From Sphingobacteriales bacterium (GTDB taxonomy: Bacteria; Bacteroidota; Bacteroidia; Chitinophagales; Chitinophagaceae): a stretch of 64,000 nt of DNA. Positions 17,044-48,142 of this stretch are shown piece after piece. The notes under the pieces are model-generated. The model did no database searches, was not told the DNA's origin, and was given only the letters and a program-made list of their open reading frames with translations. The stretch covers positions 248,001 through 312,000 of the forward strand of contig SEFP01000001.1 in the NCBI GenBank assembly GCA_004144185.1, given 5' to 3'. A program made the position numbers and the translations under genes. Position 1 is the stretch's first letter. Every line of letters begins with the position of its first letter.

Positions 17044-18594
17044 TTACTTCACGTTGCCCATCAAACGACGTACCAGTGGCGAAATGGCAATCACCACGAC
17101 GCCTGCAATCAGGGCATAGACTGCAAACTCCTTATACCCTTCGGAATAGACCGCCAGCTTCTCCGCAGCAGACGCATTTTCACCGGGAGAGATCGCTTCC
17201 CCAAATAATCCGGCTGCATACTGCCCATACGCAGAGGCCAGAAACCACATGCCCATCATAAATCCTTGCAGCTTTTGCGGGGCCAGCTTGGTCATCAGCG
17301 ACAAGCCGATCGGCGACAGGGCCAGTTCGCCAAACGTGAGCACGAAGTACGCCAGCGTAAAAATATTGAGCGAGGCAACGCCGTTGACCGCCGTAAACTG
17401 ACCGGAGAAAAACAGGTAATAGCCCAGTCCGAGCAACAGAAACGCGATCCCGAATTTGACAATACTATTAGGCTCCAGCTTGCGCTTATTGAGGCCCAGC
17501 CACAGCAGCCCCACCAACGGCGCAAAAAGGATCACGAACAGCGAGTTGGCCGAATTATTCACCATGTTGGGATCGATGGCAACCCCAAGTAAATTCTTGT
17601 TCAGATGTTCAGCCGCATACAAACTCAGCGAACCGCCGGCCTGTTCGAAGATGGCCCAGAACACAATCGAAAAAATGATAAAGACCAACCCGGCCAGCAG
17701 CTTTCCATTCTCAGCTTTTGACAGCTTGGTCATCTCGTAGCCCAGGTACACCAGACTGAACGGACCGATGATTTTCATGAATACATCGGTATACGCCGTG
17801 TTGGATACCATGGTGATGATCAGCGGCACAATTACCAGTGAACCGCCATAGACAGCCCACTCGTACCAGCGTTTGTTCCGGAACTGCTTATAGTCGATCG
17901 GCGGCCGGCCAATAGGCCCCAGATGTTTCCGGGAGAACATAAACGTGATCAGGCTGATCAGCATCACGATAGCTACCAATCCAAAGGCTACGTTCCAGCG
18001 ACTGCCTTCCGGAATCGTGCCGGACAGAATTTCGCCTTTACCCACCCCAATCATCAGGATGCCGCCCAGGAAAGCCCCGATATTGATGCCCGAATAAAAC
18101 AGGGAAAAGCCGGCATCGCGACGCGGATCGCCCGGTGCATACAGCTGCCCCACCATGGAAGAAATATTGGGCTTGAAGAATCCGGTACCGATGATGAGAA
18201 ACGCAATACCGGTGAAGAAAAACCGGTTGGGATCCACCGCCAGGATCACACTCCCGACAATCATGAGAATACCGCCCCAGAACAGCGATTTTTGAAAGCC
18301 CAGAATCTTATCGGCAAACATGCCCCCGATGAAGGTGAAGGCATAGACCCAGGCCTGGGTAGCACCGTATTGCAGGTTGGCCACGCCCTTACCCATACCC
18401 AGCTGATACACCATGAAAAAGGTGAGCATCCCGCGCATCCCGTAGAAGCAGAACCGCTCCCACATCTCGGAGAAAAACAGCGCCCAGAGTTGCTTCGGGT
18501 ATTTTCCGGAAAAATTCTGGATGCGCTGCATCTGGGCTTCGTGTTCAGCGAGCGCCGCAGGATCGGTGTATTGCACGTCGGCGGGGGTAGACAT
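17044..18594 (-). CDS. Proton-coupled peptide transporter (POT/PTR family), copy 1
   Basis: A 516-residue inner-membrane protein with about 12-14 helices. It carries the POT proton-coupling motif ExxERFxFY (SEMWERFCFYGMRG), the NISSMVG segment in FFKPNISSMVGQLY and the PTR2-type signature FSLFYSGINIGAFLG. POT carriers import di- and tripeptides with protons. It is the first of three POT genes within 5.6 kb, all leftward. Compared with copies 2 and 3 it has a longer hydrophilic N-terminus (about 35 residues) and an inserted hydrophobic pair in the centre. Confidence 0.95.
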   Translation of the reverse strand: MSTPADVQYTDPAALAEHEAQMQRIQNFSGKYPKQLWALFFSEMWERFCFYGMRGMLTFFMVYQLGMGKGVANLQYGATQAWVYAFTFIGGMFADKILGFQKSLFWGGILMIVGSVILAVDPNRFFFTGIAFLIIGTGFFKPNISSMVGQLYAPGDPRRDAGFSLFYSGINIGAFLGGILMIGVGKGEILSGTIPEGSRWNVAFGLVAIVMLISLITFMFSRKHLGPIGRPPIDYKQFRNKRWYEWAVYGGSLVIVPLIITMVSNTAYTDVFMKIIGPFSLVYLGYEMTKLSKAENGKLLAGLVFIIFSIVFWAIFEQAGGSLSLYAAEHLNKNLLGVAIDPNMVNNSANSLFVILFAPLVGLLWLGLNKRKLEPNSIVKFGIAFLLLGLGYYLFFSGQFTAVNGVASLNIFTLAYFVLTFGELALSPIGLSLMTKLAPQKLQGFMMGMWFLASAYGQYAAGLFGEAISPGENASAAEKLAVYSEGYKEFAVYALIAGVVVIAISPLVRRLMGNVK

Positions 18595-18654
18595 AAGGCG
18601 AGGGACTACGTATAAGGTATGAAGACTTAAAAATAGGGTGCAGCCGTCAACCGG

Positions 18655-19167
18655 TTATGGAAAAATACAGATAGGTACGTTGGGTTGCACGCAGCGGTAC
18701 AACTCGTCTACCTCTTGGTTGCTCACCGCAATGCAGCCATTGGTCCAGTCATCCAGTTTAAAGAGTCCTTCCGGAATGGAAGTCGCATTGGGCAGTCCGT
18801 GGATTTTGACATCGCCGCCGGCCGACTGGCCCTGCGTTTTGGCGTAGGCGCGCTGGGCTTCGGTGGGATATGAAATGCCCAAATTTTTATGGTAACCACT
18901 GGCCGGGTTCCGGTCGTTGATGATGTAGCAGCCTTCCGGCGTCCGCTCGTCGCCTTCAAATTGTTTGGGTCCTACCGGGGCATCACCCAGTTGAATAGTG
19001 TAGGTCTTCAGCAACTGCCTATTCCGGAAGACCTGCATCTGCCGGGCTTTTTTAAATACGGCCAAGCTTTCTATGACCGTTCCGTCCGGAAGCGGTGTAT
19101 CCGGGAGGGTTGGCCGGCAACCGACCAGCAGTTCTAACACTAATAGGCAGGCTAACAGATAGTTCAT
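18655..19167 (-). CDS. L,D-transpeptidase family lipoprotein (YkuD domain)
   Basis: A 170-residue protein with a lipoprotein signal (LLVLELLVGC; lipidated cysteine at about residue 17), so it should sit in the periplasm attached to a membrane. The YkuD domain has the catalytic pattern VKIHGLPN, then DWTNGCIAVSN, where the cysteine of TNGC is the nucleophile (SHGC is the usual form). Such enzymes cross-link or trim peptidoglycan stem peptides, or attach lipoproteins. The gene lies between two peptide transporter genes, which would fit recovery of cell-wall peptides, but that link is inference. A -7 box TAGTTTTG lies 22 bp upstream. Confidence 0.88.
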   Translation of the reverse strand: MNYLLACLLVLELLVGCRPTLPDTPLPDGTVIESLAVFKKARQMQVFRNRQLLKTYTIQLGDAPVGPKQFEGDERTPEGCYIINDRNPASGYHKNLGISYPTEAQRAYAKTQGQSAGGDVKIHGLPNATSIPEGLFKLDDWTNGCIAVSNQEVDELYRCVQPNVPICIFP

Positions 19168-19194
19168 TTCCGGAGCGGCATTCGGGCTTCAAAA

Positions 19195-19237
19195 CTAAAA
19201 AAACCGGCGCAGGACTGGACGTCCTGTGCCGGTTTTA
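19195..19237 (-). terminator. Terminator of the second POT gene
   Basis: Thirteen-bp stem ACCGGCGCAGGAC / GTCCTGTGCCGGT (one G-T pair) with a 5-nt loop. In the leftward direction it is followed by a run of seven T, ending just upstream of the L,D-transpeptidase gene. Confidence 0.88.
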
Positions 19238-19255
19238 AAAAACGTGTACGTATCC

Positions 19256-20701
19256 TTAGTTGACGCCGTGCATCATTTTCCGGATCGGCTTGCTCAGCGC
19301 AATCATGACCAGTCCCAATGCAATTACAAAACCGGCAATGGAGCCGAAGATGGTCCCGGCACCCATGGTTTCGATAAACGCAGCTAAGTAGCCACCTACG
19401 ATATTAGCAATAAACGTTGCCAGCATCCAGACGCCCATCATCAGCGAGGCAAACTTCGGATGTGCCAGTTTGGTTACCACCGAAAGGCCTACCGGACTGA
19501 GGCACAGCTCTCCAAGGGTATGCAGCAGGTAGGTCATCACCAGCCACAGCAGCGCGGCCTTGTTGGCTTCACTGGCCGGATCGCCCTGGCCATTGCGTTG
19601 TGCAACGGCACCCAACATAAAGAAGAAGCCGACACCCAGCAGGATCATTCCCATGCCCATCTTTACAGGTGTGGAAAGCCGCCGACCCAGTTTGCTGGTC
19701 CAGAAGATAGAGAACAGCGGTGCCAGAGCTACAATAAACAGCGGATTCACCGATTGAAACCAAGAGGTTGGAATCAGGAAACGGCCGACCCGACGGTCGA
19801 TAAATTTATCGGTGTACAGGCTCAGCGAAGAACCAGCCTGCTCGAAGCCTGCCCAGAAGAAGATTACAAAGGCCGTCAGGATAAAAATCACCGTCATGCG
19901 CTGCTTGTCTTCTTTGGTTACCGGCCGCGCCAGGTTTCCGGAATCGACGCTACTAACAGCGCCTTTGCCAGCAGGGTTTTTCCCGATCTCGCCCAGATAT
20001 TTAGGTGCAAACGCGTTAAAGATAATCTGTCCCAGCAACATACCCAGCCCCGACAGCAGGAAACCGTAGCGATAGCCGAAGCTCACGACTTCACCGGCTG
20101 CGTTTTTAGTGGCAAACAGATTGTCCGAGAAATACCCGACTGCCAACGGCGCGATGAAGGCACCGATGTTGATGCCCATGTAAAAAATGGAGAAGGCAGC
20201 GTCCCGACGGGGATCATTGGCCGGATACAACCGACCGACCAGCGTAGAAATGTTGGGTTTGAAGAATCCATTACCTAAAATCAGCAGGAACAGGCCCAGA
20301 TACATCCCCGTCTGGTTGTTCATGCCAAAGAGCACAAACTGCCCCGCCATCATCGTGAGACCACCAATGGTAATCGCCATTCGCTGTCCCAGAAACCGGT
20401 CGGCCAGCCAGCCACCAATCAGCGGCGTGAAGTATACGAAGCCGGTAAAGTAACCATAGATAAGCGCAGCATCTTTCGGATCAATCGCCAGACCGCCTTC
20501 AATCAGTTGCTTGGTCAGATATAGAATCAGGATCCCCCGCATCCCGTAGTACGAGAAGCGTTCCCAGAGTTCGGTAAAGAACAACAGGTACAACGCGGGC
20601 GGATGGCCTTTGGAAGGCGTTTCCGGAACATGCGCATCCGGTTGATCGAGCGTAGCGCCCAATTCTTCCGGAGTGTCGATAGAAGAGACAGGAATAGACA
20701 T
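19256..20701 (-). CDS. Proton-coupled peptide transporter (POT/PTR family), copy 2
   Basis: A 481-residue POT carrier with ExxERFxYY (TELWERFSYYGMRG), FFKPNISTLVG and FSIFYMGINIGAFIAP. A hydrophilic loop of about 30 residues (KNPAGKGAVSSVDSGN) separates the two six-helix halves. It should import small peptides with protons. The gene has its own terminator and is 160 bp downstream of copy 3. Sequence is clearly diverged from copies 1 and 3, so the cluster is an old duplication or separate paralogues, not a recent amplification. Confidence 0.95.
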   Translation of the reverse strand: MSIPVSSIDTPEELGATLDQPDAHVPETPSKGHPPALYLLFFTELWERFSYYGMRGILILYLTKQLIEGGLAIDPKDAALIYGYFTGFVYFTPLIGGWLADRFLGQRMAITIGGLTMMAGQFVLFGMNNQTGMYLGLFLLILGNGFFKPNISTLVGRLYPANDPRRDAAFSIFYMGINIGAFIAPLAVGYFSDNLFATKNAAGEVVSFGYRYGFLLSGLGMLLGQIIFNAFAPKYLGEIGKNPAGKGAVSSVDSGNLARPVTKEDKQRMTVIFILTAFVIFFWAGFEQAGSSLSLYTDKFIDRRVGRFLIPTSWFQSVNPLFIVALAPLFSIFWTSKLGRRLSTPVKMGMGMILLGVGFFFMLGAVAQRNGQGDPASEANKAALLWLVMTYLLHTLGELCLSPVGLSVVTKLAHPKFASLMMGVWMLATFIANIVGGYLAAFIETMGAGTIFGSIAGFVIALGLVMIALSKPIRKMMHGVN

Positions 20702-20862
20702 GGAATACGGGTAAAAGCCGACAAGATAATACCTGACAGCCTTAGTTTTCGAATGAATAGCACTGCAACCGGCGTATCAACGATCGAAAAGATGCCGGAA
20801 GCGACCGTACGACGGATAAAGCCTGGATTGGTTTACCAGCATCCGGAATGATATAGCGGCTG

Positions 20863-22605
20863 TTACCGCACGCCTTTCTCGGCCATCACGCGATTCAGCC
20901 AGCGCAGCATCAGGAATGCCAGCAACGCCGCACCCAGCAGCAGGAAGCAGTTGACAACAAAGAAATTGGCTTTGTTCTCGTAGCCATACCAGAGCCCGGC
21001 CAGTACGCCACTCAGCTTGTTACCAATGGATGTGGCCAGAAACGACCCGCCCATCATCAGGGCCGTGTACCGCGGCGGACTCAGCTTGCTGACCAGGCTC
21101 AGTCCCATCGGACTCAGACACAGCTCCCCGATCGTAACCACGCCATAGGTGAAGATGAGATACCAGGCCGAAACCTTGACCGCCCCGTTCAGACTGGCCT
21201 GTACCGCCAGTACCATCACCAGCGTCGAAAGCGCGGAGATCAACAGCCCGATGGCAATTTTGCCCGGTGTGGTCGGCTCTTTACCTCTCCGGCGCAGGGC
21301 CGCAAATACCGCCACGACGACCGGCGTCAGCAATACCACCCAGCCGGGATTGATCGACTGAAACAGTTCCGGAGCGGCTACATATACGGGCCGGCCATCG
21401 GCCGGAATCCGGTCGGGCGGCTGGTTCCGGAAATACACCGGCTGTCCCAGCGCTTTCTTCACTTTTCCGGACGCATCTCTTTCGGCGCGGAACTGCGCAT
21501 CGTATACCGATACTTGTTTCGGCAGTGCACTCAGCTCTTCAGTCTGGTACAGTTTGGTTGCCAACGGCTGCACGGCTCCGGAGATCTCGCGGTCGGTATA
21601 ATACTTGGCCCAGTTGGTCAGCGCGGTTCCGTTTTGCTTGAATACCGCCCAGAAGATAATACTCACCGCGAACACGGCCAGCAAGGCAGCAATCGGTCGC
21701 TTCTCGCCCTCCCGGGCTTTGGCCCATAGCGAAATGTAAAAAATTACCACCGGGATACAGGCAAATAGAAACGCATCGGTACTATGAGAATCCAGCAGTG
21801 TCTTGCCCGGTCCCAGCAACAGTTCCGGAAGAAACCAGCCCAGCGCCCCAGCCACCAATGCGGGCAGAAAGACCGCTCCCAGTACCCGGCCGATTGACGA
21901 GCCGCCGGTATTCTGCGAGGCATCCAGCACTCCAGACGCAATGAGGGACTTCCGCTCGCCGGGCCGGATGTGCCGGAGACCGGAGGTAAAAACAATCAGA
22001 CCGATAAACATCCCCACACCGGCTGTGATAAACGCCGCCGGCCAGCTGTATTTATTGCGCATGAAGGCCGCCAGGATCGGTCCCAGCAAGGCACCAACAT
22101 TGATACCCATATAAAACAAATTGTAGCCCCAGTCTTTCCGGTCTTTGAACTGTGGATACGAATACAGATTACCCAGCAGCGTGGAAATAGACGGTTTAAA
22201 GAAGCCATTTCCGATCACCACCAGCGCAATGGCAGCATAAAATGACTGCATCACGGCTTCCTGTGACAGCGGAACGCCGAATGCCCGCAGCACCGGAAAT
22301 CCCAGTAATAGATAGCCTAAGCCCATCAGTGTACCACCGATATAGACGCTCCGGATATAGCCCAATACTTTATCGGCCAGAAAGCCACCCAGAAACGGTG
22401 TCAGATACGTCAACGCGATAAAGGTGCCGAATACATCATACGATTTGGCGTCGTCGATGGAAAGGCCACCTTTATCGACATCAATCATATACAGCACAAA
22501 AATGCCCAGCATCAGGTAGTAGCCAAAGCGCTCCCACATCTCCGTAAAAAACAGATACGGCAATCCTTTGGGATGCCTGCCGGAAGAAGACGATCGTTTT
22601 TCCAT
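20863..22605 (-). CDS. Proton-coupled peptide transporter (POT/PTR family), copy 3
   Basis: A 580-residue POT carrier with ExxERFxYY (TEMWERFGYYLMLG), FFKPSISTLLG and YNLFYMGINVGALLG. It is longer than copies 1 and 2 because of an insertion of about 80 residues (around TEELSALPKQVSVYDAQFRA to FRNQPPDRIPADGRP) between helices in the C-terminal half, which is probably periplasmic. It is the first gene of the leftward cluster and is divergent from the type I secretion operon, with 234 bp between them. Confidence 0.95.
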   Translation of the reverse strand: MEKRSSSSGRHPKGLPYLFFTEMWERFGYYLMLGIFVLYMIDVDKGGLSIDDAKSYDVFGTFIALTYLTPFLGGFLADKVLGYIRSVYIGGTLMGLGYLLLGFPVLRAFGVPLSQEAVMQSFYAAIALVVIGNGFFKPSISTLLGNLYSYPQFKDRKDWGYNLFYMGINVGALLGPILAAFMRNKYSWPAAFITAGVGMFIGLIVFTSGLRHIRPGERKSLIASGVLDASQNTGGSSIGRVLGAVFLPALVAGALGWFLPELLLGPGKTLLDSHSTDAFLFACIPVVIFYISLWAKAREGEKRPIAALLAVFAVSIIFWAVFKQNGTALTNWAKYYTDREISGAVQPLATKLYQTEELSALPKQVSVYDAQFRAERDASGKVKKALGQPVYFRNQPPDRIPADGRPVYVAAPELFQSINPGWVVLLTPVVVAVFAALRRRGKEPTTPGKIAIGLLISALSTLVMVLAVQASLNGAVKVSAWYLIFTYGVVTIGELCLSPMGLSLVSKLSPPRYTALMMGGSFLATSIGNKLSGVLAGLWYGYENKANFFVVNCFLLLGAALLAFLMLRWLNRVMAEKGVR

Positions 22606-22839: not shown

Positions 22840-24507
22840 ATGGCTACAACTCAGACAAGTCCTTTTCAAAAGCTGCTTCAGCTACTGCATACCGAACGGC
22901 ACGAAATCCGGTCCGTTTACTTTTACGCCATCCTCAGCGGACTGGTCGCACTGGTATTGCCACTTGGCACTCAGGCGATTATCTCGTTTGTGATGGGCGG
23001 GGTTATCTCCGTTTCGCTGGTGCTGCTGATCGTTCTGGTGATCGGCGCGACGTTTATTATTGGCCTGTTGCAGGTCAACCAGAAAAAGATTATCGAGAAA
23101 ATCGAGCAGAAAATCTTTGTGCGGTATGGGTTTCTGTACAGCCATACCATCCCGCATCTCGACCTGCGCACCACGCAGAATTACTATCTGCCGGAGCTGA
23201 CCAATCGCTTTTTTGACACCATGACGCTGCAAAAAAGCCTGGCCAAACTGCTGCTGTCTATTCCGGAAGCGATTATTCAGATTTTATTTGGCCTCATCCT
23301 GCTGTCGTTTTACAGTCCGATATTTATCGTTTTCGGCCTGCTGCTGCTGGCGATTCTGGGCCTGATTCTGCGGTTTACCGGCCGGCGCGGACTCCAAACG
23401 AGCCTGGAGGAAAGTGATTATAAATACAAAGTCGCCGGTTTTCTCGAAGAACTGGCCCGTGCCCCGACGCCTTTTAAGTTTCAACGCAAAACGGCCCTGC
23501 ACCTGCGCCGGACCGATGAACTGATCAGCGGCTATCTGGGAAGCCGGACGGCACACTTCAAGGTTCTGCTCACCCAATACTGGACGCTGATCATCTTCAA
23601 AGTGCTCATCACCACTGCGATGCTGGTGGTCGGCTCCGGACTGCTGCTGCAACAACAACTCAACATCGGTCAGTTTGTAGCCACCGAGCTGGTGATTATC
23701 ACGGTGATTTATTCCATCGAAAAGCTGATTTCCTCCCTGGAGATTGTATATGACACACTGACTGCCGCCGAAAAAGTCAATAAGCTTCCGGAAAAGCCGC
23801 TCGAAACGGATGGCAGTTTTATGCTGACCGAAACCGAAGGCCTGGCGCTCCGGCTGAAAGACCTGCAATTCTCGTATCTGGGCGAAGATCCGATTCTGAA
23901 AGGCGTTACGATCACCATTGAATCCGGTGAAAAGGTAGTGCTGGGCGGCCCCACCGGTAGCGGCAAAAGCACGCTCTTACGGGTGATCAGCGGACTGCTG
24001 CGGCCGACGGAAGGTGCCTTGCTGTACAATGACATTCCGTTCCGGGAATACAATCTGGACAGCCTGCGCTCGCATATCAGCACGGCATTCGATACCAACG
24101 AAGTCTTTGAAGGCACCTTACAGGAAAACCTGATGTTCGGTGCCGAGCTTCAGAATATCAATCAGCTGAAAGATCTGGCGGCGTTGCTGGGGATGCAGGA
24201 TTTTATTTTCTCCAATCCGGAAGGACTGCAACAGCCGATTGGCATGGCCGGGTCCGGTCTGTCGCCCCGCATCCGGAAGAAAATCATGCTGCTGCGCGCG
24301 CTGCTCAACAATCCTAAACTGCTGGTACTCGAAAATCCGGAACAGTACCTCAATGTCAAGGAGCTGCAAGCTTTTATCCGGTTTTGCGGTACCTCTTTAC
24401 AAGAGGTTACCTGCATCATCAGCAGCCAGAATCCGGTGTTCGAACTGGCCGGCATGCGATCCATTCACCTCGATGAAGGGCTGATTGAGGAGGCCCCAAC
24501 CGCTTAA
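22840..24507 (+). CDS. ABC-type secretion transporter with degenerate ATPase domain
   Basis: A 555-residue HlyB-like protein without a peptidase domain. Residues about 25-320 form the membrane domain, and the nucleotide-binding domain follows. Walker A is intact (GGPTGSGKST, from residue 369). The other motifs are altered: the Q-loop reads ISTAFDTNEVF with no Gln in the usual place, the signature LSGGQ is replaced by LSPRI (474-478), Walker B ends Leu-Glu-Asn (497-499) instead of Leu-Asp-Glu, and the H-loop histidine is replaced in IISSQNP. The frame is uninterrupted, so this is not simple decay. It is the first gene of an ABC-HlyD-TolC operon, with 9 bp to hlyD. It may bind ATP without efficient hydrolysis. 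Confidence 0.88.
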   Translation: MATTQTSPFQKLLQLLHTERHEIRSVYFYAILSGLVALVLPLGTQAIISFVMGGVISVSLVLLIVLVIGATFIIGLLQVNQKKIIEKIEQKIFVRYGFLYSHTIPHLDLRTTQNYYLPELTNRFFDTMTLQKSLAKLLLSIPEAIIQILFGLILLSFYSPIFIVFGLLLLAILGLILRFTGRRGLQTSLEESDYKYKVAGFLEELARAPTPFKFQRKTALHLRRTDELISGYLGSRTAHFKVLLTQYWTLIIFKVLITTAMLVVGSGLLLQQQLNIGQFVATELVIITVIYSIEKLISSLEIVYDTLTAAEKVNKLPEKPLETDGSFMLTETEGLALRLKDLQFSYLGEDPILKGVTITIESGEKVVLGGPTGSGKSTLLRVISGLLRPTEGALLYNDIPFREYNLDSLRSHISTAFDTNEVFEGTLQENLMFGAELQNINQLKDLAALLGMQDFIFSNPEGLQQPIGMAGSGLSPRIRKKIMLLRALLNNPKLLVLENPEQYLNVKELQAFIRFCGTSLQEVTCIISSQNPVFELAGMRSIHLDEGLIEEAPTA

Positions 24508-24516
24508 GCGCCCCGT

Positions 24517-25881
24517 ATGAAATCCCTTCAGGAAACCGTCCAGCAAGAATCTCCCCGCGTAACGCTTCGCTCTTTTGATCAGGTCTACCACGTCCACAAG
24601 AAAAGCCATGTCGGTAAGTGGGTGCTGGGACTGTCGTTGTTCCTCGTGGTTTTGCTGTTTTTGCCCTGGACGCAGAATATCCGCGCCCGTGGCACCGTCA
24701 CGACACTTGATCAGGAAGGCCGCCCGCAGCAACTCAACGCCATTATCGGTGGCCGGATCGTGAAGTGGTATGTCCGGGAAGGGCAACGGGTGAAAGCCGG
24801 CGATACCCTGGCACAACTAGCGGAGATTAAAGACGCGTACCTCGATCCGCAGCTGCTGGAGCGCACCGAGTCTCAGATTCGTTCCAAGGAAGCATCAGTT
24901 GAAGCCTATGGCTCTAAAATCAACGCAACGAACTCGCAGATCGAAGCCCTCGACGCCGGCCGCAGTCTGAAAGTGCAACAGCTCGACAACAAGCTGCAAC
25001 AGACGGTCCGGAAGCTGCAATCCGACAGTATGGAACTGGTAGCTGCCATCAACGATGCCCGCATTGCCGAGCGGCAACTGGAACGCCAGCGTAACCTCCG
25101 CGATAGTGGCCTTTCCTCCCTTCAACAGGTAGAGCAACGGGTGACGGCCTATCAAAATGCGCTGGCGAAACGCACCACCGCTGAAATCAAGTTATCCAAC
25201 ACCCGAATCGACCTGGTCAACATTACGGTCGAGAAAAGCTCTGCGACGCAGGAGTACGCTGAAAAGGTTTTTAAAGCACAGGGCGACCGGGCCGCCGCGC
25301 TCAGCGACCAGGCCACCGGACAAGGGGAAGTCACCAAGCTCGAATCGCAGTATGCCAACTACCGCATTCGTTCCGGACAGTATTATCTCACCGCCCCGCA
25401 GGACGGACAGATCATCGGTATTACCAAGCAGGGCCTGAACGAAATCATCAAAGAAGGCGAAGTATTGTTGAGCGTGGTTCCGGACAAAGGACGCCAGGCG
25501 GTCGAATTGTTTGTGCGCCCGCAGGATCTTCCGCTGGTCGCTGCCGGCCAACCGGTTCGCTTTCTGTTTGATGGCTACCCGGCAGTAGTCTTTAGCGGCT
25601 GGCCGGAAGCTTCGTACGGCATCTTTGATGGTCGGGTGGTTGCCGTGGAAACAGCTGTTGGTGCCAACGGGTTGTTCCGCATCCTGGCCGAAGAAGACCG
25701 TCGCCGCAAGCCCTGGCCGCCGACCCTTACCCTGGGCAGTGGTGCACAGGGTATCATGCTGCTGAAAAATGTACCGATCTGGTATGAGCTGTGGCGCAAT
25801 ATCAATGGCTTCCCGCCGGAGTATTACCAACCTGCCGCTGCAACCGGCGATAAAACCAAGGCAGATGCAGCTAAAAAGTAA
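24517..25881 (+). CDS. HlyD-family periplasmic adaptor
   Basis: A 454-residue membrane-fusion protein. A cytoplasmic N-terminus of about 30 residues is followed by one membrane helix (WVLGLSLFLVVLLFLPW), a biotinyl-lipoyl-like segment (GGRIVKWYVREGQRVKAGD), a long alpha-helical hairpin (about 95-270, rich in Gln, Glu, Lys and Ala) and the returning beta-barrel (YYLTAPQDGQIIG). It should join the inner-membrane transporter before it to the outer-membrane TolC channel after it. Its end overlaps the next gene by 17 bp, which supports translation coupling. Confidence 0.93.
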   Translation: MKSLQETVQQESPRVTLRSFDQVYHVHKKSHVGKWVLGLSLFLVVLLFLPWTQNIRARGTVTTLDQEGRPQQLNAIIGGRIVKWYVREGQRVKAGDTLAQLAEIKDAYLDPQLLERTESQIRSKEASVEAYGSKINATNSQIEALDAGRSLKVQQLDNKLQQTVRKLQSDSMELVAAINDARIAERQLERQRNLRDSGLSSLQQVEQRVTAYQNALAKRTTAEIKLSNTRIDLVNITVEKSSATQEYAEKVFKAQGDRAAALSDQATGQGEVTKLESQYANYRIRSGQYYLTAPQDGQIIGITKQGLNEIIKEGEVLLSVVPDKGRQAVELFVRPQDLPLVAAGQPVRFLFDGYPAVVFSGWPEASYGIFDGRVVAVETAVGANGLFRILAEEDRRRKPWPPTLTLGSGAQGIMLLKNVPIWYELWRNINGFPPEYYQPAAATGDKTKADAAKK

Positions 25882-27268
25882 GGTCGTCGGACTGGTGCTG
25901 GCGTTATTGGGAAGCCTTCCTGCACTGCTGGCGCGGGACAGCACGCAACTGCGGCAACTGGAGCGCGATGCGTATCTGAAGATTATCCAAAGCTACCATC
26001 CGGTGATCCGGGCGGCCGACATTGACGTGCTGAATGCGCGGGCCAACCTGATGCGTGCCCGTGGGGTGTTCGATCCGCAGGCCAAAGCCAACTACCATTC
26101 CAAAACCCTCGACGGCAAGGAATACTACACCTATTTTACACCGGGCATCACCATTCCAACCTGGTACGGACTGGAGTTTAAAGCCGGCATCGACGATGCA
26201 CGCGGCTATTACCTCAATCCGGAAACCACTCCCGGTGCGGTCTCCTATGTGGGCGCCAAGCTGGTGGCCACCAATATCTTTTTTGATGTGCGCCGCGCCG
26301 GTGTAGAGCAGGCGCGGGTGCTGGTGCGGCAGTCGGAAGCCGACCGGCTGCTGGCCGTGAATGACCTGTATTATCAAAGCATCTCCGCCTACTGGAACTG
26401 GTGGCTGTCGTGGGAGCAGCGCCGGATCTGGGAAGAAGCCCGTGTAGTAGCTGCCGAGCGCATGCAGTTTGTCCGGCAGGAATATCTGGCCGGTGCCCGC
26501 GCCGCTATTGACACTACCGAGGCGCTGACGCAGATCCAATCGCTGGACGCCCAGTTTCTGACCTCGGACCTGACCTTGCAGAATGCCGGCGTGACGCTCA
26601 ACACCTATCTCTGGTATCAGAACAATACGCTGGTGCCCTGGGAAGAGACCTGGTTGCCGACCCGTCCGCAGCTCCGCCCCATTCCACCGCTGACGTTTTT
26701 CCTGGAGCAGCTGACCGAACATCCCAAGCTGCAATCGGCCCGCGCCAAGATCGAGTTTCTGAACATTGATCTGCGGATGAAGAACCAGTATCTGTTTCCG
26801 AAGATCAGTGTGGGCGGCAGCGTACTGGGAAAAGACTGGAACCCACTGCCCAATGAGCGTTCCGGAAATTATTTGCGCAGAAACTACAAGCTGGAAGCCG
26901 ATCTGAGCATTCCGTTGTTTTTGCGCGAGGCACGGGGCAACCTGCAAATGGCCCGTCTCAAAACCCAACAGGCCTCGCTGGCGCAGGACATTGCCTATAT
27001 CGACCTCGAAGCCAAGGTGCGGAGCTACTACAACGAAGCCATCAATCTGAGCCAGCAGCAGACGTTGTGGGAAGCCAGTTTTGCGGCCTACGAGCGGTTG
27101 TTGCAGGGCGAGATTATCCGGTTCGAGAATGGGGAAAGCACGTTGTTTCTTATTAATGCCCGCCAGTCGAAGCTGCTGGAAGCCAGCCAGAAGCTGCTGG
27201 ATATCTACGCCAAGCGCGGCAAAGCCGAAGCGGCCCTGTACTGGGCGGCCGGACTGCTGATTCAGTGA
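25865..27268 (+). CDS. TolC-family outer-membrane channel
   Basis: A 467-residue outer-membrane efflux protein with a signal peptide (MQLKSKVVGLVLALLGSLPA, then LLA). Two repeats of long helices and strands follow, with conserved features such as SYHPVIRAADIDVLNARANL and LVRQSEADRLLAVNDLYYQ. It is the exit duct of the type I system formed with the two preceding genes. The ATG at 25865 is preferred over the longer frame from 25769 because it begins the signal peptide and gives the 17-bp overlap with hlyD. No obvious secreted substrate (RTX repeats or double-glycine leader) is encoded nearby. Confidence 0.93.
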   Translation: MQLKSKVVGLVLALLGSLPALLARDSTQLRQLERDAYLKIIQSYHPVIRAADIDVLNARANLMRARGVFDPQAKANYHSKTLDGKEYYTYFTPGITIPTWYGLEFKAGIDDARGYYLNPETTPGAVSYVGAKLVATNIFFDVRRAGVEQARVLVRQSEADRLLAVNDLYYQSISAYWNWWLSWEQRRIWEEARVVAAERMQFVRQEYLAGARAAIDTTEALTQIQSLDAQFLTSDLTLQNAGVTLNTYLWYQNNTLVPWEETWLPTRPQLRPIPPLTFFLEQLTEHPKLQSARAKIEFLNIDLRMKNQYLFPKISVGGSVLGKDWNPLPNERSGNYLRRNYKLEADLSIPLFLREARGNLQMARLKTQQASLAQDIAYIDLEAKVRSYYNEAINLSQQQTLWEASFAAYERLLQGEIIRFENGESTLFLINARQSKLLEASQKLLDIYAKRGKAEAALYWAAGLLIQ

Positions 27269-40645: not shown

Positions 40646-43600
40646 TTACCGGACGAAGATGAATCGCAGGGTGACACCGCCACGGGTGGTGGTAATCGGG
40701 TACGACGAGGATACGTACGGGATGCTCTGACGGCGGTCGTAGAAGAACCGCAGGGTCAGCTGATCCGAGATAATGTAATCCACGCTCGGTGAGATGCTGA
40801 TTACCTTCTGACCGCCGGTAAACTGCCGCACGTTCTGCGCCATGTAGGTATTTGAGGCTACATCATCCCGGATTCCGACATCTACTTTGACATTCAGGTC
40901 GTTTTTGAGCCGGGTAATGCCCAGGATCGGGAACGGCAGTTTGATATTGCGAGCCCGATATCCCAAGCCAAATACATACTCAGTACTGGCACGCTCGGCA
41001 ATCTGATAATCGATCAGACTCAGACTCACAGTCCGGCTTTTCCGGAATTCAACGCGGGCGGTCAGGTTGTTTTTAAAGGCGATGTCGATTCCCAGCAGCG
41101 GTCCCAGTTGCTCTGATACGGTTACGTTGGGCACCTGGAAGAACGGAATAAAGTTGTTGCTGTTGGAGTCGATAAAGGACGGGAAGCCTAGATTATAGAT
41201 ATCCTGGTACAGCAGCGACGATACAAATGAGTTCATCGCCATTGTACTCGTGTAGCCATGCGTCAGCGAGAATGTGTTCAGACGGGAGCCAATAGCTGGA
41301 ATTTTGGTCAGCCCGTTGTAGGTCAGTCGCCAGTTGGGCAGTGGCAGGTAGTTGCCAAACGGATTCTGGTTGACCCGCGTAGCCCGTCCATTGACCAATG
41401 GAATAGAACCGGCGTCTTTTCCGGAATACGCCGCCAGGAAGGCCGGCACCAGTACATCCTGCGAATAACGGGTATACCCCTTTTTATAGGCCGGATCATT
41501 CGGGTCTGAAAGTCCGTTTACATACGGATTGAGACCGCCCAACCGGTCAGACACCACCGAGCGATTGGCCAGGAACCGCTCGTAAGACGGCGACAGGTCA
41601 CGGCCTACCGGTTCGAACAGTGTTTTCAGGAAAATGCCGGAGATGGTAAACGATCCGGTGGTATATGGGTTGTTGTGCGTAAAGTCGCCGGTCCGGCCAT
41701 ACAGCGTATTGGTGTCTTTAAAAATCTCGCTATACTGTTTGCTGAACGTGCTTGTCAGCGACAAATCGATCCGGAAATCGGGGAACGGCTCTACCTGACC
41801 GGTGATGTTGATGTTGCGGGCAAACTGCTGTAAGAACTGCCCGTTAAAAAGCGAATCACGGCTGACATACCCTTCCCGTGCTTTCTGGTCGAGCCATTCA
41901 TAGCCCGGCTGGTAGCCAAAGGCAAATCCATAACCGGGTTGCAGACTCTGTGTGTTGACACCCAGGATGCGCGTACTATCTAGGAAGCCCGGCAGTACGG
42001 TACCGCCATTCTCCGTATACGAAATCGTGGTCCGCTTCACCATGGTGAGCAACCGGCCCGCAACCCGTCCGGCGGTTGACACATCTGGAACGCTGTTGCG
42101 CCGGGCAATACGGGCCGCCTTGCGATCTGCCTTGCGCTTCGCTGCTTCGGCTTTGGCTTTGGCGCGCTCCTGCGCAACTGCTACTTTCCGGAGCGAGTCA
42201 ATCTGACTATCCGGAAGACCGGCCAGCACCACCGGTGCATTGTTGATAATCAGGACCGTATCCAAAGGCTGTCCTTTGCGACGGGTAATAGGAGTTGGAG
42301 CAATACCACCACCCGGTTGGGGCACATCCGGATTTTTTGTTTCCGGCGCCTGTCCGCGCTCCTCGGGCTTTTGCAGTCCGTTGAGAGCTCCGTTCAAGCC
42401 GCCATTAATGCCGCCGCGGGTCGCACTACCTGGTGTCCGGGGTTTGGGTTGGTTTACAGCCCGCAACCAGCGTTGTTTATTGTACAGACTGGCAAAGTTG
42501 AGCTCGCCATTGACGGATTTGGTCTGGGTGTTGGCAACGGTATTTCCGAGGTTATATGCCAGTCGGGACGCGGCCGTCCACGAATAGGTTGTGCCGTAGG
42601 TAAGCCGTAGCGTTACCCAGTCTGTCAGCGGCAGCTTGGACAGCGGTACATTATACGACGCGTTCAGGCTTTGCGTAAAGTAGGTATTACGGCCAAAAGA
42701 CCGGATCAGCCCCCAGACGGTATCGCGCTTTTCCTTGCTGTCGAGGCGACCATACGGCTCGTCAATCCGGCTGTTGTTAGTAGCGTTGTAGTCCAGCGCC
42801 AGCGAGCGGGTCAGCTCCCAGCGGGTGTTGTAAGTACGCAGCCAGGTAAAGTTCTTGTAATAGGTAGGCTGCACCCGATAGCCATCGCCGCCCACCGTCC
42901 GCACGAGGGTTTCGTCAAAAGTCCGGTTCAGCTCCGTCCGGAAACTGAAATTGGCCGGAAGCGGGTTGAAGTTGAAATCTTTCACCAGCTGCCACCACTT
43001 CGACCGGCTGGTGATGAGTTTCTTGAACGGCTCGATCGGCTTGGGGGTTACTGTATAGGTATAGCCCAGACCCAGCTTCTGATTCACCAATTCATCTTTT
43101 TCGATGAGCGGGTTACGGCGGTATTGCTTGTTGTAGGAATATGAGGCATCAAAGTTGCGAACACTCCAGGGCTTCGCTTTTTGACTGGCCTTCGCAGGGC
43201 TACCCGTGATACGGGCGTTGGCAATGTTGAAGGAGGTAATAGAGGTATAATCCTGAGCGGCTTTCCGGATCGAGTCGCGCTGTTCGGCGCTGACTGCGGT
43301 AGAAAGTTTGTCTTTTAGTTTGACATCCAGATCATACGGATCGTACTGCGGCGTACTCACGTTTTCGGAATAGCCACCAAACACCGGTAGCTGGACTCCC
43401 CAGGTGGTAGGCATCAGTTTGCCCAGATTCAGGTTGGTGCTGCCATCATACTGATAGAAGTTGTCGCGCTGACGCTGGTTCAGCTTCTGGTCGATATTGC
43501 CGTAGCCGATGGTATGCATGCTGCCGGAAAGCCGTAGGTTTCCGAGATCCGCCAGTTGCAGCGCCACTTTTCCGGTGGCTGCATAGCCGGGTTGTTCATT

Positions 43601-46600
43601 CAGGCCGGTGGCGCGCAGTTCATTAAACCAGACTTCGGCACATTTAGGCAGGCCGTCATCCGCCGGGTTGGACGCATCTGCTTTGGGATTGACGATGCCC
43701 AGCATGATGGTTTTCGCATCGCCCACGTTGGGGTTTCCGACTACGATAATGCGTTTTCCGGAAGGATCCGTTTCGCTGTATGGAATATAGGCTGGTAGTC
43801 CCTGGTTGTTCCGGATGGTTTTGACTCGTACCAGGTCGCTGAGGGCCAGATCGAGCCGGTTTTCCAGCGGCCAGATATCTTCCCCGGAGCGGCTGCCATT
43901 GGCAGTAACTTTCAGCGGAATCTGATACTCGTAGTAGTTGTTTACAAAGTCAGATCCAATCCGGACAAAGGCCCGGACGTCGCCATCGCGCAGCGGTTGC
44001 TGGCCGGTGCGGCTTTCGCCGTGAATAAACATCCGCAGCCGTTCAAACTGACGCATATCCACCCCTACTTCCTTGTATGCGGCACGGGCATCACCGTCTT
44101 TCAGATTGCAGACCTGAAGCGAGAGCGCCTGTTCATTGAGGGCTACGTTCTGACCGTTGGATACCGCTGCCTGCTGTCGGTCTACGCCCGGTGGGATAAC
44201 ATACGGAATGGGCTGGCGGGCGCTGTTTTCTTCTAGGCTCACCGAAGTGAGGTTGAATTCTACGTTTTCCAGATCCTGTTCCGGAATGTTTTCGCCCGGT
44301 GCCGTCAGCGAGAAGTTGTAGCGGCGCCACTGGTTGCGGCCCAGTTCCAGACGGGCAAACCGCAGGATTACGCTGTCTTCAAACCCATTCAGGTACATCC
44401 GCATAAACCGGATCGACCGGAAGTCGGCAATACCCCCCACTTTGTGCTGGTATTCGCGGATGGGCACTTTAAACTGATACCAGGTTTCCGGTTCGGTATT
44501 TCCGTTGGGCAGCTTTACGTTGACGGTTTGTTTGTTGACGATAAAGTTCTGCCCTACCTGCATCCGCGGGTCCGTAGCGGGATGCATGTCCACCCGATAC
44601 TGGAAATAATCTTCCGACTCGTTGAGGGTATTGTCGCGGTTGATGTCTTCACTTTCCGGAATGGTAGTCGCAGCAAAGGAATAGGCAGAAGACGCGTCGG
44701 TGATGGGCGAGTTGCCATGCGGGTTGTTGAATGCCTTATAGTGCGTGAGTGCGCTGATATTGGGACCGTCGTAAAAGCCATCCCGATAATACCGGTAGTT
44801 GTCCGACGAAGGGTCGTTATTCAGTGCATTCACAACCGCCTGGTTGGATACACGAGCTGCAATCTGTTGCAGGAAATTGCCGTAGAAGGTTTTTTCTTCG
44901 GCATCATCAAATCCATCATAGCCTACGTCCTGTACAATACGGGCGGACGGATCATTGTCGAACGCACGCGTAATCTGTTGCTGGAAGCGTGGCACGTAGC
45001 CCCAGCGGGTCTGATCGAGCGTACTGGTATTTTTGGGATAGGTAATCCCATTCTCAAAAAACTTACGCGAGTCTTTGAGCACATCTTCACTAACGTTTCC
45101 GAGGTTGATGTACAGCGAGCCGCCGGTACCGGTGGGGTTGTTGATGTACGGATCCATCACCCAGAACTCCATGAACTCCACGTTGGAGGCTTCGAAATCG
45201 GAGTATTCAATGGCCCGCTGAATGCCCCCCCAGTGGGTACGCGGTGCATTCAGGGAGCCATCAGGCGCTACATCGAGGCTGTAGTTATACGGTCCTCTCT
45301 CTTTAGGATAAAAGCCTAAATCGAGGGTCGCCAGTGCATTCTGCAAGGTGATGTTACTGGCCTGCGGAAAGACCTCCTGGCGTTGCACCAGCCGTACATA
45401 GTGCTGATTGGGATCGTTTTTTACAAAGTCCGGGACGCCATTGGTTCCGTCTACCAGATTGGGTTCCAGCGTGTACCAGGCCAGTTTGGAACGCTTATAG
45501 CCATAAGATAAGGAATCAAACAGCCGGGCTTCCGGAAACAGCTCTACGTTGTTGGCATCGCGGGCATCCACTGGCGTCGACGCCAGGAACCAGGACGAGG
45601 CCGGTGTACGCAGGTCGTAGGACGAGCGGCTGCCTTCAAAATCATCGATGTACACGGCACCGGTACCACCGTCGAGTGCGTCAATCTGCACCGGGTGACC
45701 GGGCAGGATAGCCGCTACCTCTGCTGATGCGTTGATAAAGGATGCGGCGGTGGTACTATAAATGGGCAATTTATCCAGCAGGCGGGTAATGCTGTTGGAT
45801 TCGCTGGCGTAGGTGGCATCCAGCCCCAGAACGGTGTTCTTGATAGGATCTTCACCGAAGTTTACTTTCTGGGTAAACGGCCGCTCGGTGAGCCGCATCG
45901 CCGTACCGCCCAGCGTCAGTTTATTATTGACATAGTAATCCAGCCGCGTCCCCATGAAGTTTTGCTGCTGGAAGCCAAACGTCGCATTGTCTTCGTAGGC
46001 AATATTGATCGGGATTCCGGAATTGAGAATGCCTGCGTTCAGGATTTTGATCCGGCCAATGCCATAATCGATCTGATAATCTTGGTTTTCGGCCAGTAAC
46101 TGTCCACCGGCGGTCACCGTCACAGAGCCCTGCGGGATGTTGAAGGCATTGAGGAAAATCTCTGACGACGACGAGGACTTGTACGATCCCCGCATGATGT
46201 AGCGGTTGTTCTGCTGAAACTGCCGGGCAATCGTCTTGGTAGAATCGTACAGGATGTTGTAGAGATACTTGCGCTCCAGCTGTGGTGCGCCGGCAAAAGA
46301 CGGGGCCAGATCGCGCCCGAACGGCTCCAGTACCGGAAAGATAATCTTGCCTTGTTGTGGATTGATCGTGATGCCTTCTACATAGTCAAAGATTCCATCC
46401 GGCTGCGGATCGTTCTGGAAGTTGAGCCGGTCGAGGTTCAGCACCTGCAACAGCAGGCGACCTTCGCTCGGACCTTCCGGAAGGTAGCGCAACTCGCCGC
46501 CGCCCGGATTCTGGTACAAAACATTCAACCGGAAATCTTCTTTCTGAAGTCCGTAGCCGCCGAGGGCATACACGTTCTTCATCATCAGATCCCAGATCGG

Positions 46601-48142
46601 CAGATTGACCCGTGGAGCGGTGCCTTTGAGCAACTTCAGATACAGCAGCTTCTGATTAGTGCTGTCCGGCGGCAAATCTTCCGAAAACTCACCCACCTGA
46701 TACGTTTTACCATTGTACGTATACCGATAGGCTACGGCAACGATATCGTCCGGGTTGGGCGTAGACGTGAGGGATACATACCCCAGCTGCGGGTTGAAGC
46801 TATACTCGCTGGGTTGTAGCTTACGGGCAGTGACGCGCTGAAATTCTTCACCTTCGGTCAGGCCCAGCACACCGGTAATGGCATTGGTAGCCGTTCCCTG
46901 CTGGCGGGTGGCGGGCTGGCCCTGAAGCAAACTATAGAGCCGGTTGACATTGTTGGCCGGCAGATTCCGGACCGTTGCCGCAGCTGCCGGATCATTCAGA
47001 TCCTGCCGGTACGGAGTCGCTTCGCCCAGATCCATAAAGGCCACCAGGTCGCGCACATCATTTACGGCACCGGTGCGGTTGGTGACCCAGACTTCAATTT
47101 TATTAATCGCTACCTGCGACCGGATGACCGGGAATTCGCTCAGCGCTGTGTTATAATTGTTCCGGAAATACTGCCCCAGCAGGAAGTTTTTGTTTTCCTC
47201 GTAGTCATCGGCTTTGATGGCGAACTGCTGCGTCTGGGCACCGCCCTGCACGCTGAGAGACGCGCGTTTGCTTTTCTGCTGACTGAGTGCTGCGGTGACC
47301 CACAACCGGCCAAACTGCAATTGGGTTTTAAGACCAAACAAACTCTGAACGCCCTGAATCAGCGACGACCGCAATGGAAAGCTTACGTTACCGGCTTCAA
47401 TCTTTTTAAGAATCTCGTCTTCCTTGCCGGTGTACTCAATCTTTTGCAGGTTCTGATAATCAAACTGCGCTTTGGTGTTGTTGGAGATATTCAGCTTCAG
47501 CTTATCCCCGATGGTAGCCAGCAGACTGATATTCATCTGCAGGTCAAAGTCGAACACGCCATACTTCTGCGCACGCTGCACCAAGGTCGGGTTCTGGATA
47601 TTCTGCCAGTTACCACCGATGGTGACATCTACGTTGCCCTGAGGCCGTACCTGGATCGTGTTGCTACCGAAAATCCGGTCGAAGATGCCTTCGCGGTACA
47701 TCTGCGGCAGTTTGGGCTTGGTATTGAACAGCGACAAAGCATCCAGCCGGCGCTTCCAGTAGGCCTGCTCATCCAGACGGCCCTGCTCCCGCAGGTATTC
47801 TTCGTACGTGAGGTATGTAGGGTTGCGGATAAACTCATCCCCAACTTTCTCAGACAGGTAATAGCGACGGGTTTCCGGATCGTATTCGACTTCGCGGCGG
47901 ATGTTGGCAGGATCTTGTAGATCAAAGCCGGAACCCCGCCGGTCCATCAGCGGCTCTCCGGTTTTATCGGAAATAGGGAACCGAAGCGTTTCCGGTGTAT
48001 CCGGTGGCGCATCTTCCGGAAAATCATAATCCGGCGCGGGTACACGAGGCCCACCGGGAACCCGTGCACCTGCGTGAGCTAAAAAGCCCAGGGTGACGAT
48101 CACCAGTAAAAACCGCAATCCGAAAGAGTGCTTTCCCTTCAA
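40646..48142 (-). CDS. sprA: SprA, outer-membrane translocon of the type IX secretion system
   Basis: A 2498-residue protein, the usual giant size of SprA, which forms the 36-strand beta-barrel pore through which T9SS cargo leaves the cell and which is needed for gliding. It starts with a signal peptide (LRFLLVIVTLGFLAHAG) and runs through repeated barrel and plug segments such as RPQGNVDVTIGGNWQN, GNVSFPLRSSLIQGVQSLFG, YIDDFEGSRSSYDLR and ITRLKNDLNVKVDVG, ending with TLRFIFVR. A low-complexity Ala/Lys/Arg stretch (AKAEAAKRKADRKAARIARR) lies about two thirds along. The start is TTG. ruvA is 60 bp upstream in the same direction, the arrangement known from Flavobacterium. Confidence 0.97.
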   Translation of the reverse strand: MKGKHSFGLRFLLVIVTLGFLAHAGARVPGGPRVPAPDYDFPEDAPPDTPETLRFPISDKTGEPLMDRRGSGFDLQDPANIRREVEYDPETRRYYLSEKVGDEFIRNPTYLTYEEYLREQGRLDEQAYWKRRLDALSLFNTKPKLPQMYREGIFDRIFGSNTIQVRPQGNVDVTIGGNWQNIQNPTLVQRAQKYGVFDFDLQMNISLLATIGDKLKLNISNNTKAQFDYQNLQKIEYTGKEDEILKKIEAGNVSFPLRSSLIQGVQSLFGLKTQLQFGRLWVTAALSQQKSKRASLSVQGGAQTQQFAIKADDYEENKNFLLGQYFRNNYNTALSEFPVIRSQVAINKIEVWVTNRTGAVNDVRDLVAFMDLGEATPYRQDLNDPAAAATVRNLPANNVNRLYSLLQGQPATRQQGTATNAITGVLGLTEGEEFQRVTARKLQPSEYSFNPQLGYVSLTSTPNPDDIVAVAYRYTYNGKTYQVGEFSEDLPPDSTNQKLLYLKLLKGTAPRVNLPIWDLMMKNVYALGGYGLQKEDFRLNVLYQNPGGGELRYLPEGPSEGRLLLQVLNLDRLNFQNDPQPDGIFDYVEGITINPQQGKIIFPVLEPFGRDLAPSFAGAPQLERKYLYNILYDSTKTIARQFQQNNRYIMRGSYKSSSSSEIFLNAFNIPQGSVTVTAGGQLLAENQDYQIDYGIGRIKILNAGILNSGIPINIAYEDNATFGFQQQNFMGTRLDYYVNNKLTLGGTAMRLTERPFTQKVNFGEDPIKNTVLGLDATYASESNSITRLLDKLPIYSTTAASFINASAEVAAILPGHPVQIDALDGGTGAVYIDDFEGSRSSYDLRTPASSWFLASTPVDARDANNVELFPEARLFDSLSYGYKRSKLAWYTLEPNLVDGTNGVPDFVKNDPNQHYVRLVQRQEVFPQASNITLQNALATLDLGFYPKERGPYNYSLDVAPDGSLNAPRTHWGGIQRAIEYSDFEASNVEFMEFWVMDPYINNPTGTGGSLYINLGNVSEDVLKDSRKFFENGITYPKNTSTLDQTRWGYVPRFQQQITRAFDNDPSARIVQDVGYDGFDDAEEKTFYGNFLQQIAARVSNQAVVNALNNDPSSDNYRYYRDGFYDGPNISALTHYKAFNNPHGNSPITDASSAYSFAATTIPESEDINRDNTLNESEDYFQYRVDMHPATDPRMQVGQNFIVNKQTVNVKLPNGNTEPETWYQFKVPIREYQHKVGGIADFRSIRFMRMYLNGFEDSVILRFARLELGRNQWRRYNFSLTAPGENIPEQDLENVEFNLTSVSLEENSARQPIPYVIPPGVDRQQAAVSNGQNVALNEQALSLQVCNLKDGDARAAYKEVGVDMRQFERLRMFIHGESRTGQQPLRDGDVRAFVRIGSDFVNNYYEYQIPLKVTANGSRSGEDIWPLENRLDLALSDLVRVKTIRNNQGLPAYIPYSETDPSGKRIIVVGNPNVGDAKTIMLGIVNPKADASNPADDGLPKCAEVWFNELRATGLNEQPGYAATGKVALQLADLGNLRLSGSMHTIGYGNIDQKLNQRQRDNFYQYDGSTNLNLGKLMPTTWGVQLPVFGGYSENVSTPQYDPYDLDVKLKDKLSTAVSAEQRDSIRKAAQDYTSITSFNIANARITGSPAKASQKAKPWSVRNFDASYSYNKQYRRNPLIEKDELVNQKLGLGYTYTVTPKPIEPFKKLITSRSKWWQLVKDFNFNPLPANFSFRTELNRTFDETLVRTVGGDGYRVQPTYYKNFTWLRTYNTRWELTRSLALDYNATNNSRIDEPYGRLDSKEKRDTVWGLIRSFGRNTYFTQSLNASYNVPLSKLPLTDWVTLRLTYGTTYSWTAASRLAYNLGNTVANTQTKSVNGELNFASLYNKQRWLRAVNQPKPRTPGSATRGGINGGLNGALNGLQKPEERGQAPETKNPDVPQPGGGIAPTPITRRKGQPLDTVLIINNAPVVLAGLPDSQIDSLRKVAVAQERAKAKAEAAKRKADRKAARIARRNSVPDVSTAGRVAGRLLTMVKRTTISYTENGGTVLPGFLDSTRILGVNTQSLQPGYGFAFGYQPGYEWLDQKAREGYVSRDSLFNGQFLQQFARNINITGQVEPFPDFRIDLSLTSTFSKQYSEIFKDTNTLYGRTGDFTHNNPYTTGSFTISGIFLKTLFEPVGRDLSPSYERFLANRSVVSDRLGGLNPYVNGLSDPNDPAYKKGYTRYSQDVLVPAFLAAYSGKDAGSIPLVNGRATRVNQNPFGNYLPLPNWRLTYNGLTKIPAIGSRLNTFSLTHGYTSTMAMNSFVSSLLYQDIYNLGFPSFIDSNSNNFIPFFQVPNVTVSEQLGPLLGIDIAFKNNLTARVEFRKSRTVSLSLIDYQIAERASTEYVFGLGYRARNIKLPFPILGITRLKNDLNVKVDVGIRDDVASNTYMAQNVRQFTGGQKVISISPSVDYIISDQLTLRFFYDRRQSIPYVSSSYPITTTRGGVTLRFIFVR

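Follow-up and report, generated by a model that had tools for sequence, protein, structure and literature searches.

ABC transporters are defined by their ATPase. In the heterodimeric exporters TM287/288, TmrAB and TAP one complete nucleotide site is kept, and the pump of EmrAB-TolC has an MFS fold that is unrelated to the ABC membrane domain. Within the parts of the literature available to us, the importer SbmA is the sole natural ABC membrane domain found to work without an ATPase, and we know of no adaptor-TolC operon for it. Excerpts of one report describe SbmA as driven by protons and as having its origin in an ABC membrane domain, with its coupling helices lost and a glutamate ladder present (PMC13316013). 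MsbA without its ATPase domain (NBD) is called drug transport-active in excerpts of another, which also state that the growth defect whose cure requires lipid transport persisted with this protein (PMC8660845).

Here we analyze a stretch of 64,000 nucleotides from a Sphingobacteriales bacterium (the window), in which an operon of the type I secretion kind begins with a catalytically degenerate ABC gene. Members of its family occur in hundreds of species genomes, and some records annotate them as ATP-binding proteins although the protein probably hydrolyses nothing.

Results

A degenerate exporter gene in an intact operon

The window operon lies on the + strand in the order ABC exporter, HlyD adaptor, TolC-type factor, the arrangement of a type I secretion operon. 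Its first gene (22840..24507) is an intact frame for a degenerate type IV ABC exporter of 555 aa, in which ABC_membrane (E 7e-12) and ABC_tran (E 1e-22) both score above their Pfam cut-offs. The membrane domain (TMD), with six helices, spans about residues 20-313, and most of the NBD is encoded at 23902..24507, as placed from protein residue numbers. TIGR03375 (LssB) was the best NCBIfam model for this protein, at 157.7 bits against a cut-off of 693.1. The second gene (24517..25881) encodes an HlyD-type periplasmic adaptor of 454 aa, whose best NCBIfam model, TIGR01843 (type_I_hlyD), reached 81 bits, under the cut-off of 208.65. The TolC-type outer membrane factor (25865..27268) was listed as an open frame from 25769; by eye, the Met at 25865, ahead of a signal-peptide-like stretch, is the likelier start. 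ORF and domain searches thus agree with the first-pass annotation, which had described an intact frame followed by HlyD and TolC genes.

A POT-family transporter (20863-22605, PTR2) lies upstream on the opposite strand and a phosphoribosylglycinamide synthetase gene lies downstream at 28790. Elsewhere in the window, the region 17044-22605 (-) holds three large open frames (17044, 19256 and 20863) that look POT/MFS-like, the PTR2 match being that of 20863, and an open frame of 2498 aa occupies 40646-48142 (-).

An AlphaFold2 model of the ABC protein had a mean pLDDT of 90.5, with both halves confidently folded. It shows the six-helix TMD and NBD of the type IV fold and matched the PDB structures of MsbA (7ph3), PCAT1 (8voz), PrtD (5l22), TM287/288 and TAP, with TMq up to 0.89. 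By sequence, the membrane half alone gave one chance match to solved structures.

Catalytic motifs in the window protein and its family

The same annotation had held that only Walker A is normal, and alignment bore this out. Walker A reads GPTGSGKST from residue 370 (23947-23973), while the Q-loop region DTNEVF at residue 418 (24091-24108) has no Gln, LSPRI at residue 474 (24259-24273) replaces LSGGQ, Walker B ends in Glu498-Asn499 (24331-24336) in place of Asp-Glu, and the H-loop position is Gln530 (24427-24429) instead of His; all lie on the + strand, with coordinates worked out from protein residue numbers. LSGGQ, the Walker B Asp-Glu pair and the H-loop His of ABC exporters are therefore all absent, and the protein would not qualify as the ATP-hydrolysing inner-membrane motor of type I secretion. 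The exporter at 711, cited earlier as a canonical comparison, indeed has normal motifs in the same alignment. It is one of the six other full-length exporters of the genome that were checked, and in all six Walker A, the Q-loop, the Asp-Glu pair and the H-loop His are canonical and the signature reads LSGGQ, LSGGE or LSQGQ, so the degenerate reading is no alignment artefact.

Close homologues with standard motifs would, by the criterion of the first-pass annotation, have refuted its reading; among 22 aligned close members there were none. All 22 lack LSGGQ, which makes sequencing error or chance untenable as the cause of signature loss. In a related alignment the 20 members other than the window protein share 34-51% identity with it. 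Single members of the 22 retain Asp-Glu (L032, L041, L042) or the H-loop His (L026). Closest to canonical is L111 (LSTGQ, Asp-Glu, His), a distant relative of another class.

The pattern extends across 213 short members, defined by an open frame below 660 aa among 225 distinct NBD-bearing members. None has an [LI]SGG[QEK] signature. Asp-Glu is retained in seven, three of them from other classes (L103, L107, L111), the commonest Walker B pairs being Glu-Asp (68) and Glu-Glu (58). At most six have the H-loop His, as the ten commonest residues at that position, His not among them, sum to 207. Substitutes recur: Glu stands at the Walker B Asp position in 155/213 and Asn at the H-loop His position in 98/213. 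Walker A is strict in 145 and its Lys is present in 200, and L112 has an intact frame without any Walker A, its ABC_tran score falling under the Pfam cut-off. Extended forms, which combine an N-terminal extension with a degenerate NBD, have lost the signature in 20/20 fetched cases and keep the H-loop His in three (L363, L365, L366). Of the 11 long forms from other classes, all have Walker A, 10 have Asp-Glu, seven have the His and none has LSGGQ. As read from aligned sequences, catalytic degeneracy is a trait of the whole family.

Family members (E below 1e-60) were found in 22 of 59 near-relative genomes, the bacterium's own included; within the genus, its genome alone of four has one. Across the phylum 97/395 sampled genomes match at E below 1e-80, and a scan of GTDB contigs gave at least 578 relatives, of which 80 were kept, with names that include Chitinophagaceae, Sphingobacteriaceae and Flavobacteriaceae. 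Names given to members in annotated records include "ABC transporter ATP-binding protein", as in Riemerella, and "ABC transporter transmembrane domain-containing protein". A search of open-licence PubMed Central articles found no description of the family.

Constraint on the two domains

TMD identity exceeded NBD identity in 210/210 family pairs (mean 0.489 vs 0.316), and most of the invariant alignment columns fall within the TMD. For the exporter at 711, represented by 30 orthologues, the NBD was the better conserved domain in 368/435 pairs (mean 0.651 vs 0.611 for the TMD); as this control set is less diverged than the family, the comparison is valid for the direction of the difference and not for its size. 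Judged by these identities, the usual constraint is inverted in the family, the membrane domain being better kept than the ATPase domain.

dN/dS was calculated for 18 pairs retained from 297 at 70-97% identity, the others having been dropped for saturated synonymous sites, short alignment or a sequence already used. Medians were 0.080 for the NBD and 0.037 for the TMD. The NBD value was the higher in 18/18 pairs and well under 1 in all of them, indicating that the remaining NBD is still under purifying selection.

Relatives without an ATPase domain

Forty-three genes that end after the TMD were fetched, having been selected for that property. L311 was set aside: its membrane-domain frame (L311:5032-6540) overlaps a separate NBD frame before HlyD, a frameshift split that is either real or a sequencing error. 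All 42 remaining genes directly precede HlyD and then TolC on the same strand, although the TolC frame of L300 is broken in two. By match span alone, not gene by gene, such forms account for 39/87 matching genomes in family code f22, at least 38 of 180 in f29 and 25/101 in f28.

In two TMD trees the 42 NBD-less rows form one clade (support 99 and 100), and a bootstrapped TMD tree recovers the 13 of them that it contains (100/99). This clade is nested among the extended forms with degenerate NBDs, with a support of 99 for 56 rows in one tree and 100/96 for 21 rows and 100/100 for 41 rows in the bootstrapped tree. Its immediate sister is unsure (67 and 77 in one tree, 96/90 in the bootstrapped one), and the 11 long forms of other classes fall outside the group of NBD-bearing extended and NBD-less forms. 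With the root assumed to be outside the Bacteroidia forms, catalytic erosion came before deletion. We rejected repeated NBD loss within genera: a single change suffices on the trees, and the presence of both forms in one genus therefore reflects transfer or old paralogy. On this phylogenetic evidence, one daughter clade has lost the NBD completely while retaining the HlyD-TolC operon.

In a second phylum, plasmids of sphingomonads carry further relatives, with 23-30% identity to a Bacteroidota membrane-domain-only protein. Fifteen records match one such relative, and in all 11 proteins examined the Walker A Lys, Walker B Asp and H-loop His are absent. The order ABC, adaptor, TolC is present in 8/8 annotated regions opened, the adaptor being annotated as HlyD in seven and as a biotin/lipoyl-binding protein in one. 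Novosphingobium aromaticivorans DSM 12444 is a laboratory strain that has the operon, with a dead NBD. The sphingomonad proteins group apart from the rest at the end of a long branch (2.6), so that their catalytic loss may be independent; their placement is unsure. Four plasmid records with family members have no gene annotated there (L408, L414, L415 and L416, from Persicobacter and Novosphingobium).

Conserved residues of the membrane domain

Glu283 (23686..23688, +), placed in TM6 by helix borders from the model, is a candidate coupling residue. The aligned position is acidic in 11/11 long forms, 214/214 other NBD-bearing relatives and 42/42 membrane-domain-only relatives, and the TM6 Glu is retained in 11/11 sphingomonad proteins. 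In 6/6 canonical exporters of the genome the position is non-acidic, membrane-domain alignments being rough at that distance. The long forms, with Walker A and mostly Asp-Glu and His, have Glu283 too, and the residue is hence not tied to NBD loss. Lys132 in TM3 is as well kept. At position 140, also in TM3, the window protein has Ser, as does a Riemerella plasmid member, where 212/214 relatives have Asp or Glu.

Genes near the operon

HlyD follows the family ABC gene in 178/180 loci and TolC is present in 171/180, a set in which a few genomes occur twice under different sources (for example Terrimonas ferruginea). The neighbour clusters that were inspected among those found in at least eight of these loci, assigned mostly by eye, are TetR, histidine-kinase-like, carbonic anhydrase, SulP, LysR, acyl-CoA-synthetase-like and SDR; among them there was neither a likely cargo gene nor a drug- or peptide-pump-like cluster. 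The TetR-like cluster, one member of which was confirmed as TetR_N, occurs in 69/180 loci on either strand, mostly just upstream, and would suit a role in small-molecule or stress export. None was seen by eye beside the window operon.

A beta-carbonic anhydrase gene is present in 17/180 loci (among them L047, L048, L049, L058, L101, L121, L122, L130, L134 and L142), and SulP in 15/180, often alongside it. In L049, L101, L122, L130, L134 and L142 the carbonic anhydrase gene immediately precedes the operon in the same orientation. Of 20 genomes considered for a genome-wide count, three chosen for having such a gene close to the operon were dropped (G581, G667, G332). In the remaining 17, the fetched stretches make up about 0.5% of the sequence, so that about 0.13 carbonic anhydrase genes would be expected in them, against 6/26 genes found, from 4/17 genomes (kinship uncorrected). 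In the eight annotated sphingomonad regions a single neighbour hints at the same, a DUF2309 gene directly upstream in Sphingobium plasmid pHAL16 (L407). A role related to inorganic carbon or pH is a lead.

Discussion

We consider the chances evenly balanced that the window protein belongs to an ABC-derived tripartite exporter which is no longer run by its own ATP hydrolysis, the membrane domain working without an ATPase of its own. Favoring this reading are the catalytic degeneracy throughout the family, the inverted constraint, the NBD-less clade with its HlyD-TolC operon, the lack of a family NBD above background in 14 genomes of that clade, the sphingomonad forms, the invariant acid in TM6, the SbmA precedent and the activity claimed for MsbA without its NBD. 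Speaking against it are the growth defect left by NBD-less MsbA, the well-kept ICL1, the Walker A and NBD constraint of most NBD-bearing forms, and the presence of Glu283 in the long forms. The protein would be the inner-membrane part of a type I secretion-like exporter descended from an LssB-like ABC exporter. Its membrane domain would alternate as a dimer, most likely driven, like SbmA, by the proton gradient, with the invariant Glu283 of TM6 and Lys132 of TM3 as coupling candidates, and cargo, a small molecule or peptide, would be handed to HlyD and TolC. The remaining NBD would at most bind ATP and serve as a structural or regulatory scaffold. The proton gradient is the leading candidate for the energy source, at somewhat less than an even chance. 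With similarly tentative confidence we propose that an exporter class has turned from an ATP-driven to a proton-driven ABC membrane domain inside a tripartite machine, its stages preserved. These stages, in the same HlyD-TolC operon of Bacteroidota, would be near-canonical forms with a loosened signature, forms with a dead NBD and forms with none, and the sphingomonads would hold a separate, fully dead branch.

An ATPase could instead act in trans, by pairing with an active ABC half or by docking of generic NBDs from elsewhere on the coupling helices, which we regard as unlikely. At least six further full-length exporters of the genome carry canonical motifs, and ICL1 is very well kept even in the NBD-less clade (mean consensus 0.80 vs 0.71 overall), perhaps as a docking site for an NBD or some other protein; ICL2 Arg207 is mostly gone from that clade, however, remaining in 9/42 members. 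ABC nucleotide sites are composite, and a chain without its catalytic residues and without its signature completes neither site with a partner. The window protein lacks both, so pairing with one canonical half could restore neither site. The first-pass suggestion of a heterodimer with an active half elsewhere is disfavored because both motif sets are lost, a whole clade has no NBD and no ABC half is linked: another ABC gene was present in 1/20 loci, with no conserved second half and none linked that would complete a consensus site. Pairing with an active neighbour was accordingly rejected as the main reading, there being no linked partner and both half-sites being dead.

Separate genes for TMD and NBD are known in the YddA family, according to excerpts of a published account (PMC13316013), but NBD-less stretches of the present family hold an NBD gene of any kind in 5/42 cases, at differing positions, two of them downstream on the same strand and both of genus code g98. 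A family NBD that had split off and relocated was also looked for, and rejected, by a profile search of 14 NBD-less genomes. Their best matches (168-187 bits, in open frames of 588-636 aa and one of 1008) did not rise above the background of five genomes without the family (171-190 bits), while three with a degenerate NBD gave 230-329 bits; a relocated NBD diverged to background level would have escaped this search.

A second alternative, which we think rather improbable, is that the membrane domain transports nothing and serves a different pump solely as an anchor or gate for HlyD-TolC. Preservation of the operon order without an ATPase would be expected of such a platform, the NBD is still constrained, and other inner-membrane pumps, such as that of EmrAB-TolC, work with a periplasmic adaptor and TolC (PMC8277102, in part). 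On the other hand, the six-helix domain, with its charged helix residues, is the most conserved part of the protein, and the neighbour clusters looked at include no drug- or peptide-pump-like one. The non-hydrolysing platform put forward in the first-pass annotation fits in part: both halves of the model are folded (mean pLDDT 90.5), and purifying selection still acts on the NBD (median dN/dS 0.080).

It is more improbable that the NBD-bearing forms are driven by ATP gating or a very slow ATPase, with Walker A binding and perhaps slow hydrolysis by substitute residues. Such a mechanism would account for the Walker A Lys in 200/213 short members, for the patterned replacements (Glu for the Walker B Asp in 155/213, Asn for His in 98/213) and for NBD dN/dS values well under 1 in 18/18 pairs, but is inapplicable to the NBD-less clade, to L112 with no Walker A and to the sphingomonad forms. 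The mostly kept Walker A and the selection on the NBD do suggest that ATP binding may still matter where an NBD is present. A decaying relic without function is very improbable: the spread is patchy (own genome only among four of the genus) and frameshifted examples exist (L311 and the TolC frame of L300), but both domains are under purifying selection, on which ground a pseudogene was rejected, the operon is intact across families and 97/395 genomes of the phylum sample match.

In this family the loss of the ATPase can be traced stepwise within a single type of operon, for an exporter rather than an importer and as part of a tripartite machine. With these natural proteins it becomes testable whether an ABC membrane domain can act as a secondary transporter in its own right.

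With the type I secretion exporters LssB, HlyB and PrtD the family shares the fold and the operon logic of ABC, HlyD and TolC. Unlike them, it has no hydrolysis motifs, its NBD is less conserved than its TMD and is absent in one clade, and the short form has no N-terminal domain ahead of the membrane domain. The heterodimeric exporters TM287/288, TmrAB and TAP are among the closest PDB folds and also have degenerate nucleotide sites, whereas the window chain has lost the signature as well as the catalytic residues and has no linked partner gene. EmrAB-TolC joins an inner-membrane pump of another energy type to an adaptor and TolC, a possible likeness in working (PMC8277102, excerpts). SbmA/BacA (SLiPT) is likewise a type IV ABC membrane domain that works without an NBD and is proposed to descend from a full ABC transporter; in the available parts of its description SbmA works as an importer and has a TM0 domain and a glutamate ladder but no coupling helices (PMC13316013). 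Compared with SbmA by that description, the window protein has kept ICL1 and has a short helix (residues 8-18) before TM1 in the model, where the SLiPT pattern is a TM0 and lost coupling helices. Unlike SbmA, the present family thus retains ICL1, an export operon and living relatives with degenerate NBDs.
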